Positions 39,156 through 52,325 of a stretch of DNA of 52,325 nt are shown one piece after another (the stretch's first letter is position 1; each line of letters opens with the position of its first letter). Location: assembly GCA_016188575.1 (NCBI GenBank), contig JACPHN010000137.1, forward strand, positions 1 to 52,325, given 5' to 3'. The DNA comes from Candidatus Schekmanbacteria bacterium. Its GTDB lineage: Bacteria > CSSED10-310 > JACPHN01. The notes beneath the pieces are model-generated. The model saw only the letters and a program-made list of their open reading frames with translations, had not been told where the DNA came from and ran no database searches. Made by a program: the position numbers and the translations under genes.

Positions 39156-40895
39156 TCAGGGGCGCTCACTCCGATTGAGCGCTGCCGCTCCTTCGAGCAG
39201 ACGCCAGCCGAAGGCGGGGACCTCGCCGAGCGGGTACGCCGCCATATTCGCGGCGCTCAGCGGCGTGGCGGCCGCGGCAATCCACAGGTCGGTCACCGCG
39301 CCCTCGGCTGCTCCCGCGGCGCTCAGATCGAGGGTAACACCTGTTAGCGGAGCTCCCGTGGTATTCGCGACTACCATGGCGAGCTTTCCGGCAGCGCGCC
39401 GCGCGTAGCTGACCACCGCCGGCTCCGCCGCGCCCAACGCGTGCACCGGCACGAAATCCCCGACCGCCAGTGGTTCTGACTGCTTCCGGATCGCCAGCAA
39501 GCGCCGATAGCGGTGCCACAGCGAATCCGGGTCAGCTTGCTGCGCCGCGGCGTTGGTTTCCGCGTAGTCCTCGCCGAGGGGGAACCACGGTGTGCCGCTC
39601 GTGAAGCCGCCATTGCCTGTGGCATCCCATTGCATCGGTGTCCGGTAGGCGAGGTCCGCGGGATAGTCGGCGGGAATCTTCGCGTTGCGCATGCCGATTT
39701 CCTCTCCATAATAGAGAAACGGCGTCCCGGGCAGCGTCGTCTGCAGAACAGCCGCCAGCGTCAACCTGGCGGGGTCGCTTTCGAGCCGCGTGGCCAATCG
39801 CGCCATGTCGTGGTTGCCCAGAAAAACGGCGTCGAGCGCTCCGGCGGGGTACCCGTCGGCGAGCGCGCAGAATACATCCGCGAGAAACTGCGCCGAGCGA
39901 TATTGCAGGGTCTTGACTATCGCGTCCTGAAGAGCGAAATCGAAGGTCGCGTCCATTTCGTCGAGCGCCCCATAGTAGCGGCCTACGGTGCGCGTATCCG
40001 CCCACGCCTCACCAACCAGAAAGGCGTTCCCATTGCCATCCTTGGCGCGGCGAGCGAAATCGCGCCACCATGCATGGGTCTCTGGCGTGTCTTGCTGCCC
40101 GGATCCCGGTCCAGTCTCAATCGCGTACCGCACGGCGTCGAGCCGAAAACCGTCGACGCCACGCGCGAGCCAGCCTCTCGCGATCCGCACGATCTCGTCC
40201 CGGACTGCGGTCGACGTCAGGTTGAGGTCTGGCATGCCCGACCAGAATACGCCATAGTAGAACGCGCCTCCCAGAGGGTGCCAGACCGAACCCCCTCCCC
40301 AGGGCTGCGACCAGCCGGGATTGTCGCCGCGCCACACGTACTTGCTCCGGTCCGGGCTCGCTGGATTGCTCGCGGAGATGAACCACGGGTGCTGATCTGA
40401 GGTGTGGTTGACGACGAGGTCAACGATGACGCGGATTCCTCGCCGATGCGCCTCCGCGATCAGGCGATCGAAATCCACGCCGCTGCCGTAGGCGGCGTCG
40501 ACCGCCTCGTAGTCCACCGTGTCGTAGCCGTGGTAGCTCGCAGCCGCAAAGATCGGCATGAGCCAAAGCGCGTCGACACCGAGGTCCGCGCCGCCCACGC
40601 GCCCATCATTCAGGTAGTCCAGGCGCGAGATCAGACCGTTCAAGTCGCCGACACCATCGCCGTCCGAATCCTGGAAGCTGCGCACGAATACCTCGTAGAA
40701 TGCCGCCCGCCGCGCCCACTCGGTGGCCGCGGACGCGGCCGCACGCTCGCCGCAGTCATCCCCGGCGCCCCCGCCACTGCCGCCGCAGCCGAGCCAGACT
40801 ACCAGTCCTACCCAACAGATCCCTCGCGATGCCGCTGTTCTCACCGTGTCGCTCCGCAACCGAACGCGCCAGGACGCTACCTTACCGCTGCTCAC
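39156..40895 (-). CDS. GH13 alpha-amylase-family lipoprotein
   Basis: 579 residues. N-terminal signal ending in WLGC followed by Gly/Ser (lipoprotein-like), then a GH13 barrel with all four conserved regions: I DLVVNH, II GFRLDAVRY (nucleophile Asp, about 252), III LVGEAW (acid/base Glu, about 297) and IV FLGNHD (about 360). A beta-sandwich C domain completes it. A short DSDGDGVGDLNG segment near the start of the barrel is the usual GH13 GDLxG region and may bind calcium. It is expected to hydrolyse or transfer alpha-glucans at the cell surface. The start at ATG 40895 precedes the basic n-region; GTG codons just inside are alternatives. Confidence 0.9.
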   Translation of the reverse strand: MSSGKVASWRVRLRSDTVRTAASRGICWVGLVVWLGCGGSGGGAGDDCGERAAASAATEWARRAAFYEVFVRSFQDSDGDGVGDLNGLISRLDYLNDGRVGGADLGVDALWLMPIFAAASYHGYDTVDYEAVDAAYGSGVDFDRLIAEAHRRGIRVIVDLVVNHTSDQHPWFISASNPASPDRSKYVWRGDNPGWSQPWGGGSVWHPLGGAFYYGVFWSGMPDLNLTSTAVRDEIVRIARGWLARGVDGFRLDAVRYAIETGPGSGQQDTPETHAWWRDFARRAKDGNGNAFLVGEAWADTRTVGRYYGALDEMDATFDFALQDAIVKTLQYRSAQFLADVFCALADGYPAGALDAVFLGNHDMARLATRLESDPARLTLAAVLQTTLPGTPFLYYGEEIGMRNAKIPADYPADLAYRTPMQWDATGNGGFTSGTPWFPLGEDYAETNAAAQQADPDSLWHRYRRLLAIRKQSEPLAVGDFVPVHALGAAEPAVVSYARRAAGKLAMVVANTTGAPLTGVTLDLSAAGAAEGAVTDLWIAAAATPLSAANMAAYPLGEVPAFGWRLLEGAAALNRSERP

Positions 40896-42915: not shown

Positions 42916-45900
42916 TCATCGCAGCACCTCCACCAGTTCGGCGATCACCGACACTTCACCCTCGTCGACGTCTGCCAGCACGATGGTCTCGAATTCGCGG
43001 TTCTCCGGCCGAAGTCGAATGACCTTGTGGCGCCAGCCGTCTCCATCGTCGCCGCCCGGCTCCTTCTCGCTCTCGTAGCGCTTGACGGTGTAGCTGCCGC
43101 CGCCCTCGGGATCCTGGATGGACTGGTGCTGCACGAGCACGATGCGGCCCTGGCGCGATCCCGTGACCGGCGAGTGGAAGAGACACCACGCGCCGTCGGG
43201 AATGCGGGGCTGCATCGATCGCCCCACGACCTGGGCCACGAACATACCCTCCGACAGCGGGCGCGAGGTTCGCGGCACGACCCAGCCGTCGGGGTCAACG
43301 TGCTGGTCCGCTCCGAACGCGCCGGCGGCGGCCTTGAGCGTGTAGAGCGGCACGCAGGTGCGGAACCGGTCCGCCGCCTTCGGATCGACGCGCTCGAAGG
43401 GCTCGCCGTCGGAAGTCGCGGCCCGCGCCTGCTCGCTGCGTGCCTGCTCGTAGACCTTCTTGAGTAGGTGCTTGCAGACGACCTCCTGGAACTCCTGGTC
43501 GTTCATGAAGCGCGCGGTGATGTCCTCGTTTTGCTCCATGCGGTCGATGAAGAGGCCCTCGAGCGCCTTCAGGAACACGTAGCCGAAGTTCTCCATCGTG
43601 TTCGCGAGCGCCGCCTGGCGGATCTCGGGATCGGCAAGGGCGTCCTCGCGGATCGACTCCAGGAAGAGCTGGTCGCCCGGCTTGAAGTCGGTCCCGAAGC
43701 GCTCGTTGAGGATGTCGATGAGCTGGGAGAGCTCGATCATCGCGCCCTGGGCGGCGCGGCTCCCGACCGCGACGGGACCCGCGACCTCGCCACCCTTCCC
43801 CGCCTCGAGGGCGATCGAGCCGTCGCTGATCTTCTGGAGGCGGTAGTACTTCAGCGCCACCTCGTCGTCGAAGTCGTAGACAGGGCCCCGGTCGCCCTTC
43901 GGCAGCTTGGTGAGGAGGAAGCGGATGTAGGAGTAAAGCTTCTCGAGGTCCGAGTCCTGGAACGGGATGACTTGCGCGAGGAAGGCGTAGAGGTTCCGGT
44001 AGACCACGAGCGTCTTGCGGAGCTCCTCGCGCTCCTCTTCGGCGAGTTGCGTGTAGCGGTGCACCGCGGGATCGATGCACGCGTTCATGCGCGCGTGGTC
44101 CGCGCCCGTCTGGTTCTGCCGGGGCTTGTAGAAGACCTTGCAGAGCTCCTCGACCTCGCTCTTGTGATAGACCTGATGGCCGTCGAGCTTGGCTTGGATC
44201 TCGTAAAGCTGGCTCGGCTCGGCGCGCTCGCCGACGAGCGTCTGCTCGTAGTAGGGCTGGAAGGCGGCGAGGATCTCCTCCGGCTCGTTCACGAAGTCGA
44301 GGACGAAGGTGTCCTCCTTGCCCGGGCACGTCCGGTTGAGGCGCGAGAGCGTCTGCACGGCCTGGATGCCGGCCAGCCGCTTGTCGACGTACATCGTGTG
44401 CAAGAGCGGCTGATCGAAGCCAGTCTGGTACTTCTCCGCCACAAGGAGCACCTGGTACTCCTCGGAGCCGAAGCGCTCCGGAAGCTCCTTCTCGCGGATG
44501 CCGTGGTTCATCCCGACCTCGGTGTACTCGACGCCCGGGGCGTCGGGGTCGATCACCGTGCCGGAGAAGGCGACCAGCGTCTTGATGCCCTGGTAGCCCT
44601 TCTCGGAGATGTACCGGTCGAAGGCCTGCTTGTAGCGCACGGCGTGGAGCCGGCTGGAGGTGACGACCATCGCCTTCGCCTTGCCGCCGATCTTGTGCAT
44701 CGTGAAGTGGCGGAAGTGCTCGACCATCACTTCCGCCTTCTGCGCGATGTTGTGCGGGTGCAGGCTCATGAAGCGCGCGAGCGCGCGAGCAGCCTTGCGC
44801 TTGTCGACCTCGGGGTCATCCTCGATCGACTTGATCAGCCGGTAGTAGCTCTTGTATGTCGTGTAGCTTGCCAGCACGTCGAGGATGAAGCCCTCCTCGA
44901 TCGCCTGTCGCATGCTGTAGAGGTGGAACGGCCGCGGCTTGCCATCGGCAGCGGGCTCGCCGAACACCTCGAGGGTCTTGTACTTCGGCGTGGCCGTGAA
45001 GGCGAAGAAGCTGATGTTCGGCTGCCGGCCGCGCCTGGCCATCGTGCGCAGGATCTCTTCCTCGTGGCCGGGGAGCCCCTGCTCCTCCGCCTGCTGCCGC
45101 GCCTCCTCGCGGACCGCGGCGCCGCCGAGCACGCCCTTGAGCTCGGTCGCGGTCTCGCCGCCCTGCGAGCTGTGGGCCTCGTCGATGACCACCGCGTACT
45201 TCCGCCGCGGCAGGTCCCCGATCTTCTCGGTGACGAACGGGAACTTCTGGAGCGTCGTGACCACGATCGGGACGCCGGTGCCGAGGGCCTGGGCGAGCTG
45301 CGCCGAGTCGCGGTCGATCTTCTGCACGACCCCCTGCCGGTGCTCGAACTGGTAGATCGTGTTCTGGAGCTGCTGGTCGAGTACGACCCGATCCGTGACG
45401 ACGACGACCGAGTCGAAGATCTTCTCGTCGTGGGCATCGTGCAGCGTCGAGAGGCGGTGCACCAGCCAGGCGATGGAGTTGGATTTGCCACTCCCGGCCG
45501 AGTGCTGCACGAGGTAGTTGGCCCCGGCCCCACGCTCGCCGACGTTGTGGACGAGCGCCCGCACGCAATCGAGCTGGTGGTAGCGGGGGAAGATCATGCC
45601 CTCCCGCTTGACCTTCTGTTTCCGAGGCGCTTCTCCTCGACCTGCAGGTGGATGAACCGGGCCAGAATGTCGAGCAGGCTCCGCCGTTCGAGGACCTCTT
45701 CCCACAGGTAGGCGGTCTTCCAGCCGCCGGGGTTCTGCGGGTTGCCGGCCCCGCCCGCGCGACCCTTGTTGAACGGCAGGAAGTGCGTGTTGCGGCCGGA
45801 GAGCCGCGTCGTCATGTAGATCTCATCCGGGTCCACCGCAAAATGGACGAGGGCGCGCTTCTTGAACTGGAACAGCCGGTCGGCCGGGTCCCGGTCGTGC

Positions 45901-46418
45901 TTGTACTGGCGCAGGGCGTCGCGCCAGGTCAGCCCCGTCATCGGGTTCTTCAGCTCGGCGGTGACGATGGGGATGCCGTTGAGGGACAGGATCACGTCGA
46001 GCGTGTTCGCGTGCCGCGGCGAGTAGCGCACCTGCCGCGTGACGGTCAGGCGGTTCGCCGCGTGGCGCCGCTCGGCCTCGGGGTTCATGCCGCTGGCTGG
46101 CGCGAAGTAGGCGGCGCGGAAGAGCTTGCCGAAGCACTTGAAGCCGTGGCGCAGGACCGAGAGGCAGCCCTCGTGCTCGGAGTCGAGGGCGCGGCACAGG
46201 TCGTCGATCAGGGTCTGGGCCGCCTTATCCTTCTGGAGGCTCTCGAGGTAGGCCCACTCGTCGGACTGCGTCTCCTTCACGAAGGCGAGCAAGGTCGGCG
46301 GGTCGATGCAGCGCTCGGCGTCGAACGCGTCGCGGTCGCCAGTCGTGTACCCGCCCGAGGCCGTGAGGTAGGCCTCGATCGCGGCCTCGAAGGCGGCTTC
46401 GGTGTGGCGGCCAGGCAT
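42916..46418 (-). CDS. hsdR: Type I restriction subunit HsdR with C-terminal LexA-like S24 domain; one frameshift
   Basis: Start ATG 46418 overlaps the DUF4411 stop (TGATG). N-terminal nuclease domain with LDVILSLNGIPIVTAELKN (PD-ExK). The first frame ends at 45594; near 45618 the reading must shift by one missing base (from LQVEEKR to RKQKVKREGMIFPRYHQLD). The helicase part follows with AGSGKS, VIDEAH and FTATPKYK. The last 150 residues (about 42919-43370) are an S24 peptidase-like domain: cleavage-site-like LKAAAG, nucleophile Ser in VGRSMQPRI, Lys in YTVKRY, and LRPENREFETIVL, all close to LexA. Restriction motor plus autoprotease in one chain is unusual. Without repair of the frame no full HsdR is made. 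Confidence 0.9.
46370..46418 (-). repeat. hsdR 5'-edge repeat, resident copy
   Basis: First 49 bp of hsdR; 43 of 49 positions match 48293-48341 in direct orientation (hand alignment). See the mini-ORF entry. Confidence 0.8.
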
Positions 46419-46942
46419 CAGCGCACCCCTCCGAACTCGAACCGCACGGCGAGATCCTTGAGCATCCGGAACGAGTCCGTGTAGGACACGTCGAACTGCG
46501 CGCAGACGTCGGGGAGCTTGATCTCTCGCTTGGCCTCCGGACGCCGCTCTTCGTTCGTGACGACGATCGCGCCGTGGACTCTCGCGTAGGCCACGAGCCA
46601 GCCGTCCGCGCCGGTAGCGAACTTCGCCTTCGCGTGGTCGAAGTACTGGGGGCTCCGTTGCACCCACAACATGACGTCGGTGTACGCGGTGGTCACAGGA
46701 TCATCGTCCACGCCGAGGAAGAAGGTGTCGGGCAGGTCCTTCCTCACCCACTGCACCAGATCCTCCGTCTTGTGTCCCGCGAGCAGCTCGTTCCTGACAC
46801 GGTCGATGCTGTAGGTCCGTCCGGCGCGATGATGATGGATGAGGCTCGCCCAGAACCCGGGGCAGATGTCGAACGCGTAGTACCGGTTCTTCGCCGTGAT
46901 GAAGACGTCCGCGTCCAGGATGTACTGACGCTCGGCCGCCAT
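46418..46942 (-). CDS. DUF4411 PIN-like protein (putative toxin nuclease)
   Basis: 174 residues, ATG 46942 overlapping the previous stop (TGATG). DUF4411 family, a PIN-like fold: LDADVFITAKNRYYAFDICP near the start, SIDRVRNELLAG, GADGWLVAYARVHGAIVVTNE and a late SYTDSFRMLKDL, giving the set of acidic residues expected for a metal-dependent nuclease. DUF4411 genes are typically paired with an ImmA/IrrE-type HTH protein as here, which makes a toxin-antitoxin pair likely. It is coupled downstream to hsdR. Confidence 0.85.
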   Translation of the reverse strand: MAAERQYILDADVFITAKNRYYAFDICPGFWASLIHHHRAGRTYSIDRVRNELLAGHKTEDLVQWVRKDLPDTFFLGVDDDPVTTAYTDVMLWVQRSPQYFDHAKAKFATGADGWLVAYARVHGAIVVTNEERRPEAKREIKLPDVCAQFDVSYTDSFRMLKDLAVRFEFGGVR

Positions 46943-48087
46943 CAGAACCCGAACCCCAGGCGCTCCGCGTATTCCTGGAAGGCCCCTCCACGCAGGCCGG
47001 TCAGGTCGTATGCCTCCTTGAAGCCCACACGGCCCTCGATCGCGGCGCGGATGACGTGCGTGGCGAAGAGTGCGCCGACGCGGGTGTTCTGGTTGTTGTA
47101 GAAGTCGCCGCCTCCCGGTCCCTTGCTCCGGCGCCGCTCTTCGGCAACGTATGCGCGGTAGAAGGTGAAGAAGGCCTCCCGGTCGACCAATCGGAGGTCC
47201 ATAGCGCGCCGGCCAGCGACGATTGGGCTCACCTTGAATCTTCGCGCGAGATCCTCGAACGGTCGCTCGGCGCGCTTGGCGTCGCTCCAGCAGGCCCTGA
47301 GCTCGCGCTCCGGGACGAGGAACTCCGCCGCCGCCTTGTCGCAGAAGTCCTCGATCTGCGATCCGCCGGGAAACAGATCCTCAAATCCGGAAACGCCCTC
47401 GTTCCCGAGCCAGACGTGGGCAAGCTCGTGCGCCAGCGTGAACATCTGGGCCGACTTGGCGTCGGCACCGTTCACGAAGATCAGCGGGGCATGAGTGTCG
47501 CAGAGGGCGAAGCCCCGGAACTCCTGCACGTCGAGCTTCCGATGCGTGTTGTTCCCCACGACGCCGTTGATCACGGCCATGACCCCGAGGTCCTCCACCG
47601 CCTGCCGCAGCCTCGACACGGCTTCCTGCCACGTCCGCACCTCGGCGGCCCAGCCATCGCCGAAACCGATGATCCGCCGCATCTCCCGTCCCACCGCCCC
47701 GGGCGCGTCCCTCAGCCGTGCACTGCCGACGAACTCCAGCGGATCCGCTTCGCCGTCGAGAAGCGTCTCCCGCAGCCACGCCTGGCGTTGCTGCATGGCG
47801 TAGATCGAGTCGAGCAGGTCGGGGCTCGGCCCACGCAGCTCGGTACCCGCCATCGTCCGGAAGTCCGGAATCGGGAGTCGCTCTTCCGGAGGCTCTGGCA
47901 GGAAGAGGTACCCGATCGGAACGTGCGTCGCATTGGCGAACGCCTCGAGTTGCCTCATCGTCGGCTGCGCCTCGCCCCGTTCCCAGGCCGGGAGCTTGGG
48001 GAATCGACTCGCCAATGCGTGCACGGGGAGACCCGCACGCTCGCGCGCCCACTGAACGAGGTCAGGCTTGATGGCGACGCGGCTCAT
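46942..48087 (-). CDS. XRE-HTH / ImmA-IrrE (M78) metallopeptidase, putative antitoxin
   Basis: 381 residues, ATG 48087 overlapping the mini-ORF stop (TGATG). N-terminal XRE-type HTH (about 5-65, LASRFPKLPAWERGEAQPT), linker, then an M78 metallopeptidase domain with the zinc motif HELAH (about 217-221 in FTLAHELAHVWLG) and the downstream glutamate in CDKAAAEFLVP. ImmA/IrrE proteins cleave repressors in mobile elements; with DUF4411 partners they are thought to act as antitoxin or regulator. It precedes the DUF4411 gene with a one-base overlap. Confidence 0.85.
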   Translation of the reverse strand: MSRVAIKPDLVQWARERAGLPVHALASRFPKLPAWERGEAQPTMRQLEAFANATHVPIGYLFLPEPPEERLPIPDFRTMAGTELRGPSPDLLDSIYAMQQRQAWLRETLLDGEADPLEFVGSARLRDAPGAVGREMRRIIGFGDGWAAEVRTWQEAVSRLRQAVEDLGVMAVINGVVGNNTHRKLDVQEFRGFALCDTHAPLIFVNGADAKSAQMFTLAHELAHVWLGNEGVSGFEDLFPGGSQIEDFCDKAAAEFLVPERELRACWSDAKRAERPFEDLARRFKVSPIVAGRRAMDLRLVDREAFFTFYRAYVAEERRRSKGPGGGDFYNNQNTRVGALFATHVIRAAIEGRVGFKEAYDLTGLRGGAFQEYAERLGFGF

Positions 48088-48341
48088 CAGTTCTTGTACC
48101 CCCTGATCCGCTTGAACCACGAGTCCACGAGATTCAGTTCCATTTCGAGCGCGTCGACCTCCGGGGCGACGTAGTTGACCAACACGCTCTTGTCGTGGCG
48201 CTTCGCCCATTGCGACACTCGGCTGTAGCTCGCCTGGAACTCCTTCTCGTCGTCGTTCGAGAACCGGGCCAGGATCTTCACCATGTTCGGGCAGACCTCG
48301 ATCACGGTTTCGAAGGCGGCTTCAGTGTGGTGGCCAGGCAT
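48087..48341 (-). CDS. Chimeric mini-ORF: hsdR start fused to a small unknown protein
   Basis: 84 residues. The first 16 (MPGHHTEAAFETVIEV) copy the HsdR N-terminus (MPGRHTEAAFEAAIEA), and the DNA repeat is 49 bp (48293-48341). The rest, from an internal ATG at 48284 (MVKILARFSNDDEKEF...), is a charged helical protein I do not recognise, ending WFKRIRGYKN with TGA overlapping the XRE gene start. It begins 2 bp after darG. It looks like the junction made when a cassette entered the start of hsdR, placing the cassette's first gene under the hsdR start signal. Confidence 0.6.
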   Translation of the reverse strand: MPGHHTEAAFETVIEVCPNMVKILARFSNDDEKEFQASYSRVSQWAKRHDKSVLVNYVAPEVDALEMELNLVDSWFKRIRGYKN

Positions 48342-48343
48342 CG

Positions 48344-49417
48344 TTACTCGACCCCTGGGATCCAGCCTTGCTCCTGAAGGCGATGGTTCGCGGTCTTGAT
48401 GTGCTCTTCCTTGAACATATTCCGCTTTCGGTTGTTCCAACCGTGAACGGCTCCCACGACTTCCCGATCTCCTGAAGGCCTCGGCTTGGAGTGTACGGCC
48501 ACCCAATGCACCGATGACAGGAGCTCCATGCCGTACGGCGTCTCGAAGCCGTCGATGAGATCCGCGACGCGCCGCAACCGCGTTGTCGACTCCTCGTGCG
48601 CCTTGAGGAAGTCGTCGGCTTCCTCCATCGCCCCCGCGAGGAGCTCGATTTCTACATCGGGCTTCTGGCTGTCGCCATAGCCCCGGATAAAGTGCCCCTC
48701 CAGAACCTCGAACACTTTGTTGAGATTGTGAGCATAGGGCCCGTAGTGACCTGCCTCGTAGCTCAAACGCAGGGGCTCCCCGCCTTCTTGCAGGAAGTAG
48801 GCGAGCTTCTGCATCTCGAGTAGGGTCAAGCGGTAGGCCAGGAGCGAGTATTGCGCCATGAGACGGATGAATAGCGCTCGGGCGATGGTGAGGTGAGGTC
48901 GCTCCGTACCCACGGGCATGGCGCTCGCCGAGGGGGCGCCGGCCGGCTCGAACAAGGTCACCTGCACATCGTCGAGCCCAGCGAAAGCGCCCTCAATCAA
49001 GGGCCGCACTTCTGCCCAGTCGAGGCCGCCGAGACCGCAGCCCAGCGGCGGAACCGCGACGGAGGAGATCTCGTGCTGGCGGATCACCTCGACGAGGTCT
49101 TCCAATCCATCGGCGATGTCCTCGATCCGCGACTTGCCGCGCCAGTGGCGCTTCGTGGGGAAGTTGATGATGAACCTCGGGTTGACCATGCGCCCGGTGG
49201 GGAAGACGAACATCCTCCCCGGGCGCACTTCCTCGGCCCGACATGCCCGCTGGTAAGCCTTGAAGTTCTCCGGAAAGCCCTTCTTGAATTGGAGAGCGAT
49301 GCCCTTGCCCATGTGGCCTACGCAGTTCACCGTGTTGACCAAGGCTTCGACGTCGGCTTCGAGAAGGTTGCCTCGCTTGAGCGTGATCACGATTGCAGGC
49401 TCCTTCAGTAGTACCAT
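48344..49417 (-). CDS. darG: DarG antitoxin: macrodomain ADP-ribosyl-glycohydrolase with C-terminal domain
   Basis: 357 residues from ATG 49417, overlapping the darT end by 13 bp; GTG 49390 is an alternative. Macrodomain (about 10-165) with NLLEADVEALVNTVNCVGHM, GKGIALQFKK and VPPLGCGLGGLDW, typical of DarG, which removes ADP-ribose from thymidine in single-stranded DNA. The C-terminal region (about 190-350, LTLLEMQKLAYFLQEGGEP) resembles the DUF4065-type fold that binds and blocks DarT. DarTG modules protect against phage. Here it is embedded between hsdS and hsdR. Confidence 0.92.
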   Translation of the reverse strand: MVLLKEPAIVITLKRGNLLEADVEALVNTVNCVGHMGKGIALQFKKGFPENFKAYQRACRAEEVRPGRMFVFPTGRMVNPRFIINFPTKRHWRGKSRIEDIADGLEDLVEVIRQHEISSVAVPPLGCGLGGLDWAEVRPLIEGAFAGLDDVQVTLFEPAGAPSASAMPVGTERPHLTIARALFIRLMAQYSLLAYRLTLLEMQKLAYFLQEGGEPLRLSYEAGHYGPYAHNLNKVFEVLEGHFIRGYGDSQKPDVEIELLAGAMEEADDFLKAHEESTTRLRRVADLIDGFETPYGMELLSSVHWVAVHSKPRPSGDREVVGAVHGWNNRKRNMFKEEHIKTANHRLQEQGWIPGVE

Positions 49418-50049
49418 TCTGGGTGGACGTTGACGGGGCGACCGAGCGGCGCTGGATAACCCGCGAGAATCCCTTCGACTCGAGCCTTCACCGTGCCGTT
49501 GAGGACGCCGATCTCCTGGATCAGCCTCCAGTCGCACGCACGGTGTACCAGAAACTCGGCCTGCTTGCGGCGTTGCCGATCCATGTCGTCCACAGTGTCG
49601 GCCCAGTACTGTGCTGCCACCGCGCCCCAATCCACCTTGTCCAGGTCGGCCAGGTTATCGAACCACGACGTGAAGGCGGCGATGCCGTGTCCGTCCGAGA
49701 AGACGAAACCCACCCCGTTCGCCTGGACTTGTTGTGCGGTGGACACGAGGTAGATCAGCGGCGCCTGGCCTTCGGTGTATCCCGCAACCCGTCCTGTGTG
49801 GAGTTGGAAAAGCATCGGCGAACGAGGCCCAAAGTAGAACGGAACGTAGTCATGGATGACGCCGCCGGGTCCGCAAGCCACCGTTCGTGTCCGTCGCTGC
49901 TGCTGAATGTCAACGTTGTGGATCGTCTTGTATCCATGACCGTCCTGAGGCACATGGTTCGGTGCGTGGAGCGCGGCCCGCGCGAGACACACTGGCAGAT
50001 TGTCCACGTGGAGAAAGCGGTAGACGGGCGTGGGCAGGGGCACGCTCAC
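49405..50049 (-). CDS. darT: DarT toxin: ssDNA thymidine ADP-ribosyltransferase (DUF4433)
   Basis: 214 residues from GTG 50049, overlapping the hsdS stop by GTGA. DUF4433 signatures: YRFLHVDNLP near the N-terminus, VPFYFGPRSPMLF, then the ARTT-like FTSWFDNLADLDKVDW and the catalytic glutamate in RRKQAEFLVHRACDW, followed by LIQEIGVLN. Full length for the family, so probably active. DarT modifies thymidines in ssDNA and blocks replication; during phage infection it stops phage DNA synthesis. DarG follows at once. Confidence 0.92.
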   Translation of the reverse strand: MSVPLPTPVYRFLHVDNLPVCLARAALHAPNHVPQDGHGYKTIHNVDIQQQRRTRTVACGPGGVIHDYVPFYFGPRSPMLFQLHTGRVAGYTEGQAPLIYLVSTAQQVQANGVGFVFSDGHGIAAFTSWFDNLADLDKVDWGAVAAQYWADTVDDMDRQRRKQAEFLVHRACDWRLIQEIGVLNGTVKARVEGILAGYPAPLGRPVNVHPEWYY

Positions 50050-51389
50050 GGGACCGTCTCCTGGCGCACGTCGAGCTTGCCGGTCACGGCGGCCGAGATG
50101 AGCGCGGTGCGGTACTCGCGGAGGCGGTCGATGCTGAGGTTGATCTTCGCGACCACAGCACTGATACGCGCTGACTGGCGCTCCAGGATTGCCGCAATGG
50201 CCTGTTGCTCTTTGAAGGGTGGGAGCACAATCACTCTGTCTGCTGTTTCCGACAGATTCATTCGTGCTCGTGTCGTACCAGTCGCTAGCGCACCGCCCAA
50301 TGCCGAAGCCGTCATTGAGAGTTGAAGTGCCACGTACTCAGGGCTCGTTTCGCACGCGAGTCGAAACCGGAAGCAGTCAGCTTTGACCATCGTGCGCCCA
50401 AGCCAAGGCGGGGCAACGCACGCGCGGCCAACGGGATTGTTGTCGTCACCGAGTCCAGCAATCAGCAGGTCCCCAGGCAGAACGTCATGATCGCCCAGCG
50501 TCTCGTAATGCTCGGGATCGATGAAAGCCTGATCCGTGTCATCGAACCAAGCGAGGCGTATGTTCTGCAAACGAACAACTCGGATTCCAGCATCGACGTA
50601 GTGCTCAGACTTCAGGCCGCTCCCAAAGGGACCGTCACACCGAGATTGTGTTACCCGGCGCAGCTTGATAACAGCCCAATGCGCTGGAATCGCACCGAGC
50701 CACGCGACGCCCGAGTCCTTCATCGGGGCGTTCGGGTCGAGGCCCTTGGTGACGGCGTGGCTGATGAGGGCGGCGCGCTTCTCGTGGAGCAGCTCGATCT
50801 GGCGGCGCTTCTTCTCGATCAGCGCGTCGATCCGCGCCGTCTCGCGGTCCAGGAACGCGGCGATCGCCCGCTGCTCGTTGAGATTCGGGACAGGTATCCG
50901 TAAATCCGCGAGCTTCTCCCTGGTGAAGTGAGCGATGGTCGCGCGGTTGCATAGAACGTCGAACCACCCGGCTGTGTCCACCGCATGCAACACATGCTGG
51001 AGAAAACGAACGTCGGCTGAATCCATGGCGCGCAAGCGGTGAACCGCGTTCTGGATGATGCAGTCGGGCGGAGGGACATCAACGACACCGGCTCGGCCAG
51101 CCTCCCCACCCTCGCAGACCAGGAGATCGCCGGGCTGGATTCCATACTGGCGAAGGTCCGTAGGGCCTGCCCACATCTCAGGCAGATCGTCGGTGTCGAC
51201 GCGCCCCCATTGAACGTGGATGGCCTTCAGGTAGGGCACGGAACGGTCTTCCGGGCTCGCAGGTTCGTTTTGCAGCATCTTGCCGAGCTGAACGTCAAAG
51301 TAACGTTTCACCGGATGCGCCGGCCAGGTAACCGGAGGATCGCCCATCCACTCAACGCCCCGATGATCGAGGTGTCGGACTGCTGTCAT
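50046..51389 (-). CDS. hsdS: Type I restriction specificity subunit HsdS
   Basis: 447 residues from ATG 51389, overlapping the stop of the duplicated hsdM end (ATGA). Two target-recognition domains separated by the central conserved helix (LDRETARIDALIEKKRRQIE then LLHEKRAALISHAVTKGL) and followed by the C-terminal one (LERQSARISAVVAKINLSID, REYRTALISAAVTGKLDVR). The second TRD opens with SGVAWLGAIPAHW, the usual start of a repeat half. It directs the methylase and HsdR to a bipartite DNA site that cannot be read from the sequence. Confidence 0.93.
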   Translation of the reverse strand: MTAVRHLDHRGVEWMGDPPVTWPAHPVKRYFDVQLGKMLQNEPASPEDRSVPYLKAIHVQWGRVDTDDLPEMWAGPTDLRQYGIQPGDLLVCEGGEAGRAGVVDVPPPDCIIQNAVHRLRAMDSADVRFLQHVLHAVDTAGWFDVLCNRATIAHFTREKLADLRIPVPNLNEQRAIAAFLDRETARIDALIEKKRRQIELLHEKRAALISHAVTKGLDPNAPMKDSGVAWLGAIPAHWAVIKLRRVTQSRCDGPFGSGLKSEHYVDAGIRVVRLQNIRLAWFDDTDQAFIDPEHYETLGDHDVLPGDLLIAGLGDDNNPVGRACVAPPWLGRTMVKADCFRFRLACETSPEYVALQLSMTASALGGALATGTTRARMNLSETADRVIVLPPFKEQQAIAAILERQSARISAVVAKINLSIDRLREYRTALISAAVTGKLDVRQETVP

Positions 51390-51469
51390 TCCGACACCTC
51401 CGCCAGCATGCCAGCAATCTCCCGCTCGATCTGCCTCAGCTCCCCTTCGATCTCCGCGAGCGGGCGTGG
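51386..51469 (-). pseudogene. Duplicated 3' end of hsdM
   Basis: 84 bp coding PLAEIEGELRQIEREIAGML plus AEVSE and a stop that overlaps the hsdS ATG. 73 of 84 positions match 52075-52158, the 3' end of the resident hsdM. It begins 3 bp after the YgiT stop and has no start codon. It keeps the hsdM-hsdS junction while the toxin-antitoxin pair lies between the two copies. Confidence 0.85.
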
Positions 51470-51472
51470 CTT

Positions 51473-51718
51473 TCAAGCTGCCGTCGGTTGCCACTGAACC
51501 ACCTCGACCAGGGCTTGCTTGCGGCGGGCGTCGCCAACGACCGCCTCCAGCCGCGCCGCGACCGGATCCTCGATCCATGCCTCGCCGCACTGCGAGCAAA
51601 GCCGGGCCGGGACGTCCCGGACGACCAGTACGCCGAACTTCAGGTCCACGGCGAAGATCGTCGTCCCGGACTCCTGTGGCCCGCCGCAGAGGGCACACCG
51701 AATGGCGTTCGTCTTCAT
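51473..51718 (-). CDS. YgiT-type (MqsA-like) zinc-finger antitoxin
   Basis: 81 residues. N-terminal zinc finger with CALCGG and CSQCGEAW (about residues 8-47), as in YgiT/MqsA antitoxins, followed by a short helical tail (DPVAARLEAVVGDARRKQAL) but no full MqsA HTH domain. Its ATG overlaps the stop of the DUF4258 gene (ATGA). The pair DUF4258 then YgiT-finger is a recurrent toxin-antitoxin arrangement. Confidence 0.85.
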   Translation of the reverse strand: MKTNAIRCALCGGPQESGTTIFAVDLKFGVLVVRDVPARLCSQCGEAWIEDPVAARLEAVVGDARRKQALVEVVQWQPTAA

Positions 51719-52041
51719 GATTTCTCCCTTCGGGTCTTGTAGTCCGACTCGAAATGCTCCTGATCCGGCCTGTAGGCGGTGATCACGTAAGCCGTCCCCG
51801 TTGCCGCGTCCAGCGAGGCCACGACGTGCAGGGGTTCCTGCCTCTTGTGGAATACGAGACAGCTCGGAAGCGGCCTGTCCGTCAAGTATGTCTCGATGGC
51901 CTCTCCCTTCAGGATAGCGGTAAAGACTTCATCGCGGGAGATGCCCCGCTCCTGCAACCGTTCCAATGCGTGGAGCTGCCACTGCACCTTCGCGTGGGCG
52001 ACGGCATCCCGCAGACCCGCCAGGTCGAAGTCAGTGGCCAT
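51715..52041 (-). CDS. DUF4258 toxin-like protein
   Basis: 108 residues from ATG 52041. Matches DUF4258 (RelE/MqsR-like fold): HALERLQERGISRDEVFTAI, KGEAIETYLTDRPLPSCLVF, PLHVVASLDAATGTAYVITA and YRPDQEHFESDYKTRR. Such proteins are predicted ribonuclease toxins. It starts inside the frameshifted tail of hsdM (whose misread stop is at 52031-52033) and is coupled to the YgiT antitoxin. The pair is flanked by two copies of the hsdM 3' end. Confidence 0.85.
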   Translation of the reverse strand: MATDFDLAGLRDAVAHAKVQWQLHALERLQERGISRDEVFTAILKGEAIETYLTDRPLPSCLVFHKRQEPLHVVASLDAATGTAYVITAYRPDQEHFESDYKTRREKS

Positions 52042-52325
52042 GCCCCGCCTCCGGCGGACGACCGTTTCGCGCCATCACTCCGTCACCTCCGCCAGCATGT
52101 CGGCGATCGCCTGCTCGATCTGCTTCAGCTCCCCCTCGATCTCCGCGAGCGGGCGCGGTGTAGGTGTAGATGTAGCGGTTGAGACCGATCTCGTAGCCGA
52201 CCTTGGTCTTCGACTCGTCCACCCAGGCATCGGGAACGTGCGGGAGGACCTCGCGCGCCATGTAGGCGGCGACGTCTTCCTTCAGCGGCACGCTTTCGTA
52301 GTCGCGCAGCGCCGGGTCCGGCTCG
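52031..52325 (-). CDS. hsdM: Type I methyltransferase HsdM, C-terminal part, frameshifted at the repeat boundary
   Basis: Truncated by the window end. Reads PLKEDVAAYMAREVLPHVPD, then KTKVGYEIGLNRYIYTYT, the usual HsdM C-terminus. At about 52156 the frame slips: as read it continues APARGDRGG... to TGA 52031-52033, whereas the neighbouring frame gives PRPLAEIEGELKQIEQAIAD and a stop at 52075-52077. The slip sits exactly where the 84-bp repeat (52075-52158) begins, so it probably marks the recombination junction or a local indel. The missing coiled-coil tail normally helps HsdM contact HsdS. Confidence 0.85.
   Translation of the reverse strand, partial: EPDPALRDYESVPLKEDVAAYMAREVLPHVPDAWVDESKTKVGYEIGLNRYIYTYTAPARGDRGGAEADRAGDRRHAGGGDGVMARNGRPPEAGHGH
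52075..52158 (-). repeat. hsdM 3'-end repeat, resident copy
   Basis: Direct repeat of 51386-51469 (73 of 84 matching by hand alignment). The two copies bracket the DUF4258/YgiT pair. Confidence 0.85.

Follow-up and report, generated by a model that had tools for sequence, protein, structure and literature searches.

Architecture of the HsdR locus

The window (the whole stretch of 52,325 nucleotides analysed, contig JACPHN010000137.1 of Candidatus Schekmanbacteria) carries a type I restriction locus on the reverse strand, in which the restriction subunit HsdR ends in a domain of the Peptidase_S24 family. The features concerned are listed below.

42919..43401, minus strand: LexA/CI-like Peptidase_S24 tail of HsdR, 161 aa (PF00717, AlphaFold2 model and PDB matches)
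43081..43083, minus strand: predicted general-base Lys (YTVKRY), from DNA and conservation
43216..43218, minus strand: predicted nucleophile Ser (GRSM), from DNA and conservation
43321..43326, minus strand: predicted scissile Ala-Gly (KAAA↓GAF), from DNA and conservation, with Ala at 43324-43326 and Gly at 43321-43323
43402..45705, minus strand: HsdR motor and C-terminal region (SWI2_SNF2, T1R_D3-like), in the same frame as the S24 tail
45597..46421, minus strand: HsdR N-terminal nuclease part (HSDR_N, Pfam)
45611..45619, minus strand: frameshift, one base fewer than in L020 and L021, from comparison with relatives
50049..51698, minus strand: HsdS specificity subunit of the same type I locus (PF01420)
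52031..52291, minus strand: end of a probable HsdM running off the contig, from translation by eye and similar to the ORF upstream of hsdS in L020

The tail and motor are encoded by a single frame of 929 aa (42916-45705, minus strand), whose C-terminal 161 residues align with positions 2-115 of the 116-position Peptidase_S24 profile, with an E-value of 2.6e-9 for the segment alone and 1.5e-7 within the whole ORF, and a score of 37.2 bits against a curated cut-off of 23.3. Upstream of the tail, this frame matches SWI2_SNF2, ResIII and T1R_D3-like profiles (Pfam) as well as REase_I (PADLOC), and profile searches thus recover the HsdR domain set in the window: HSDR_N in a second frame, the SWI2/SNF2 motor and the T1R_D3-like region. 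The sequence-only reading had placed an S24 domain at the HsdR C-terminus by eye; both the PF00717 match and the predicted structure (see below) bear this out, and the Ala-Gly, Ser and Lys that it had named lie in the window DNA where it put them. A start codon that would make the tail a gene of its own was also looked for: the stretch from the HsdR end to the Ala-Gly site has no in-frame ATG, the sole candidate start being a GTG at Val17 of the segment, so that the tail is fused to HsdR and not a separate gene.

The hsdR gene of the window is split into two frames, the HSDR_N part being separated from the motor frame, a point overlooked in the earlier reading. The frame is intact in the close relatives L020 and L021, and since the window copy is one base shorter it may be broken or mis-assembled, i.e., the frameshift may be genuine or may have arisen in assembly. 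Both hsdS (by Pfam) and the probable hsdM end (by eye) lie in the same locus as hsdR.

Predicted fold and kinship to LexA, CI and UmuD

Neither the segment nor its alignment matched any PDB sequence (E limits 1 and 0.01), and only comparison of folds succeeded. An AlphaFold2 model of the tail segment built from 66 related domains (pLDDT 88.9, pTM 0.84) yielded 17 Foldseek matches in the PDB at E ≤0.001, all of them LexA or lambda CI (best E 4e-5). With VIA-align, the best match was LexA 73-197 (Z 12.3, rmsd 2.9 over 121 residues), followed by CI, UmuD and the phage 186 repressor, with signal peptidases ranking lower; these four are the only neighbours at Z >8, and RecA-filament complexes have been solved for three of them. 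This resemblance to LexA, lambda CI and UmuD, obtained by the structure prediction that the sequence-only reading had proposed as a check, indicates that both the fold and the cleavage-site region are present in the tail. Between the family profile and the genome's single LexA, hhalign gave no significant similarity (E 0.31), although its alignment matched the Ser and the Lys of the one to those of the other. The full-length HsdR-S24 model (of L020) was set aside at a pLDDT of 49.8, and a guessed equivalent of the RecA-contacting Arg was dropped, having no counterpart in the literature searched.

The tail has in common with LexA, lambda CI and UmuD (MEROPS S24) the fold including the cleavage-site region, the Ser/Lys dyad and a hydrophobic-Ala-Ala↓Gly site on the N-side of the domain. 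In contrast with these proteins, in which the partner is a DNA-binding repressor or a polymerase subunit, the module here is joined to a restriction enzyme or to a helicase of a defence system and can be internal to its host protein, and a DP-E/D-x-G-G/R-x-YT insertion precedes the Lys strand. HTH+S24 regulators of the same subtype also exist (L129, L130 and L131). Another HTH+S24 cousin, L142 from Myxococcota, has lost both the Ser (GQGLAP) and the Ala-Gly site, and degenerate members therefore exist among the regulators.

Conservation of the cleavage site and catalytic dyad

In an alignment of 90 domains, Ser62 and Lys107 are each present in 90 of 90, while at the predicted cleavage site Ala25, Ala26 and Phe29 are each found in 86 of 86 and Gly27 in 82 of 86 (Ser in the other 4). 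The scan patterns took in GxSM and IPDGxxCLF, and the cleavage site and Lys lie outside them, so that conservation at these positions is no effect of selection by the scan. The ratio dN/dS of the tail between relatives is 0.08-0.20, indicating purifying selection. That the cleavage site is among the few invariant positions is hardly what a merely structural domain would be expected to show.

These data bear on two alternatives. One is that the module is an inert or decaying passenger with no regulatory use, as the frameshifted hsdR of the window and the fragments at L024 and L094, which are among the loci with fragments, might suggest; this we regard as very improbable given the dN/dS values and catalytic residues that are invariant across about 16 phyla. 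The other is that the module serves mainly in dimerisation or partner docking, with little or no cleavage. Dimerisation is known for the S24 domains at the C-termini of LexA, CI and UmuD, and a common docking partner would account for the variety of hosts described below; however, docking would leave the invariant Ala-Ala-(Gly/Ser)-x-Phe region and the Ser/Lys dyad unexplained, and we consider it unlikely. Profile, structure and conservation all agree, which rules out a chance likeness picked up by eye, and together with selection and the relatives they make a predicted self-cleaving S24 domain fused to HsdR well supported.

Distribution and host enzymes

Scanning bacterial and archaeal genomes gave at least 545 confirmed relatives. 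Among the best 80 of these, which come from at least 16 phyla, 69 are continuous in frame with over 240 aa of a further protein, a large enzyme, the remainder being cut by a contig edge (5) or in short or rearranged frames (6); with no usable start ahead of the Ala-Gly in the window, an independent overlapping gene is ruled out. This is the survey of homologues that the sequence-only reading had called for, and it found fusion in these 69 of 80 as well as the conserved residues given above. Isolates are represented, for instance Corallococcus (L070), and the source genome has three further copies of the module, 47-60% identical. In a set of 98 unselected genomes the module was found in 5, the window's own genome counted, and in Myxococcota 33 of 195 genomes have a match at E 1e-5, part of these being distant only. 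A prophage origin was ruled out, as a single relative occurred in viral contigs, none in phage records and one on a plasmid.

The module is carried by at least eight kinds of defence enzyme, almost all of which attack DNA: at least three HsdR subfamilies of type I systems (HindI-like and EcoEI-like included), DruE-like Druantia helicases with an MZB domain, type ISP/IIG restriction-modification enzymes, DrmMI/IIG-like (DISARM-like) methyltransferases, type III Res subunits, BPTD_3080 enzymes, SNF2/DrmD-like proteins and Schlafen-type helicases, with UvrD-like proteins as more distant hosts. Curated NCBIfam models that match the hosts end ahead of the tail. The S24 module is thus a portable cassette on many defence enzymes and no peculiarity of HsdR.

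A few loci deviate from this pattern. On a Halomonas PA16-9 plasmid (L160, 5959-8447), a frame like the Schlafen-type helicase of L019 is followed by an S24 tail in an overlapping frame, the overlap being a frameshift or sequencing error. In L094 (7686-8435) the module is fused to a PIN domain of which the N-terminal part is present (a PF01850 match below cut-off, E 2.8e-4) and adjoins an hsdS-like frame, probably in a rearranged locus. The ISP-type proteins L085 and L087 have another C-terminal extension of 198 aa after the S24 module.

Most hosts are DNA translocases, which could sense stalled translocation, and this raises the alternative of a cleavage switch that responds not to RecA but to another trigger, for instance a metabolite, a protein of the phage or the binding of DNA ends by the host motor. 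The translocation-dependent degradation of EcoKI by ClpXP (PMC3874165, PMC12707154) fits such a scheme. Conversely, all neighbours at Z >8 are proteins of the LexA, CI, UmuD and phage 186 repressor type, with the RecA-filament complexes mentioned above, and LexA is present in the genome; we think a different trigger rather improbable.

Movement between hosts and insertion sites

A tree of 101 tails shows that the module has changed hosts repeatedly, as judged from these sequences: host classes are interleaved, with 41 label changes against a minimum possible of 11 and 56.8 after shuffling, in what is a quick tree with many weak forks. Well supported branches alone require at least five changes involving HsdR_a, at least four involving HsdR_b and at least three involving DruE.

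The boundary of the cassette can be read from HsdR proteins that lack the tail, L153 and L154, which are 82% and 57% identical over about 690 aa. L153 (82% over 693 aa) stops six residues past the conserved part, and its end point coincides with the start of the tail in the window, L020, L021 and L049. Two paralogues in the source genome have the module inside the enzyme. In L005 it occupies a loop immediately before Walker A, and in the relatives L014, L016 and L076 the corresponding loop is empty and the module is at the C-terminus instead. In L006 it is internal to the nuclease, between ...TEVS and RGRADYVL, and a cyanobacterial homologue (CP150887.1) is uninterrupted across this insertion point.

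These arrangements matter for the sign of the putative switch. The tail might keep the enzyme inactive until a RecA-stimulated cut during phage attack frees an active nuclease. UmuD provides a precedent for activation through S24 cleavage, and the tail is separable and missing from a close HsdR relative; however, the tail-less relatives presumably function without it, a cut in the internal modules of L005 and L006 would break the motor or nuclease, and the main known source of RecA filaments is something other than phage infection. Activation therefore seems unlikely to us, as docking does.

A candidate RecA-stimulated switch turning restriction off

The reading we favour, with a probability of roughly 0.55, is that the module is a portable RecA-stimulated self-cleavage cassette of LexA/lambda-CI type that would turn restriction off after DNA damage. 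In an undamaged cell HsdR would carry the folded cassette at its end and would restrict incoming DNA. RecA filaments would appear after DNA damage or recombination, the time when unmodified sites arise on the cell's own chromosome, and would stimulate self-cleavage of the domain at Ala-Ala↓Gly. In a motor or nuclease with an inserted cassette the cut would split the enzyme, while cutting of a C-terminal tail would leave a ...KAAA or ...VAA-COOH end, as in the N-terminal fragment of LexA; such an exposed ...AA-COOH end would be a likely ClpXP degron, leading to degradation of the tailed enzyme. In both arrangements the enzyme would shut down its own restriction activity in cis, and any DNA-attacking defence enzyme that received the cassette could thereby gain restriction alleviation as a built-in property.

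The computed results comprise the fusion and its fold, conservation of the dyad and cleavage site, selection on the tail, the exchange of hosts and the places of insertion; we infer cleavage itself, RecA stimulation, removal by ClpXP and the sign (off, not on). The possible link to RecA and SOS, suggested by the sequence-only reading, fits the kinship to LexA, CI and UmuD, and the source genome encodes its own LexA (Ala-Ala-Gly, Ser and Lys present) and ClpX. Off rather than on is suggested by three points: a cut in L005 or L006 would split the motor or nuclease, a cut tail would end in ...AAA or ...VAA-COOH and cleaved LexA exposes ClpX signals (PMC10584840), and type I systems of E. coli need such control, HsdR being removed by ClpXP after DNA damage (PMC3874165, PMC12707154). 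HsdR is the predicted target after DNA damage here, as it is the target in the alleviation of EcoKI and EcoAI, with ClpXP the probable end in our case; however, E. coli HsdR has no protease domain and the signal there is translocation on unmodified DNA, SOS not being required (PMC11109961).

Several observations count against the proposal. Alleviation of EcoKI restriction functions in a lexA1 (SOS-defective) strain (PMC11109961), so control of HsdR need not use SOS. Ala-Ala at P2-P1 also occurs in the HTH-S24 cousins L129-L131 and may therefore be inherited rather than selected as a degron. Type IIG hosts would lose their methyltransferase as well if degradation follows the cut, and the window's own copy is frameshifted.

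More tentatively, at slightly short of even odds, one mobile cassette derived from a CI-like repressor would serve many unrelated restriction and defence enzymes throughout bacteria as a common RecA-triggered self-destruct switch, by which SOS would act directly on the proteins to disarm DNA-attacking immunity. S24 domains are familiar, as is HsdR, and how freshly repaired, unmodified DNA of the cell is protected from restriction is an old question that has been explained for a few E. coli enzymes, via ClpXP or assembly. No earlier description of S24 tails or of a shared self-cleavage cassette on restriction enzymes was found in a search mostly confined to the open literature. If true, a cis-acting self-cleavage switch common to many defence enzymes would be a general solution to self-restriction and would tie phage defence to SOS; loss of restriction would then be predicted in damaged cells and in those carrying inducing prophages, and the cassette would offer a handle for the control of S24-bearing defence enzymes.

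Neighbouring genes

Between hsdS and hsdR (48344-50049, minus strand) lie a DarT thymidine ADP-ribosyltransferase (PF14487 E 8e-62) and its macro-domain (DarG-like) partner (PF01661 E 1e-25). Directly upstream of hsdR (46418-48210, minus strand), Pfam identifies an HTH/IrrE-like metallopeptidase (Peptidase_M78) paired with DUF4411, and an IrrE-like gene is also found upstream of the S24-tail fragment in the Planctomycetota locus L024. An MqsA-like small protein (weak, below cut-off) and a second small ORF occupy the interval between the hsdM end and hsdS (51473-52041, minus strand). On the other side of the fusion, 39156-40895 (minus strand) encodes a probable secreted alpha-amylase-family protein, from translation by eye.
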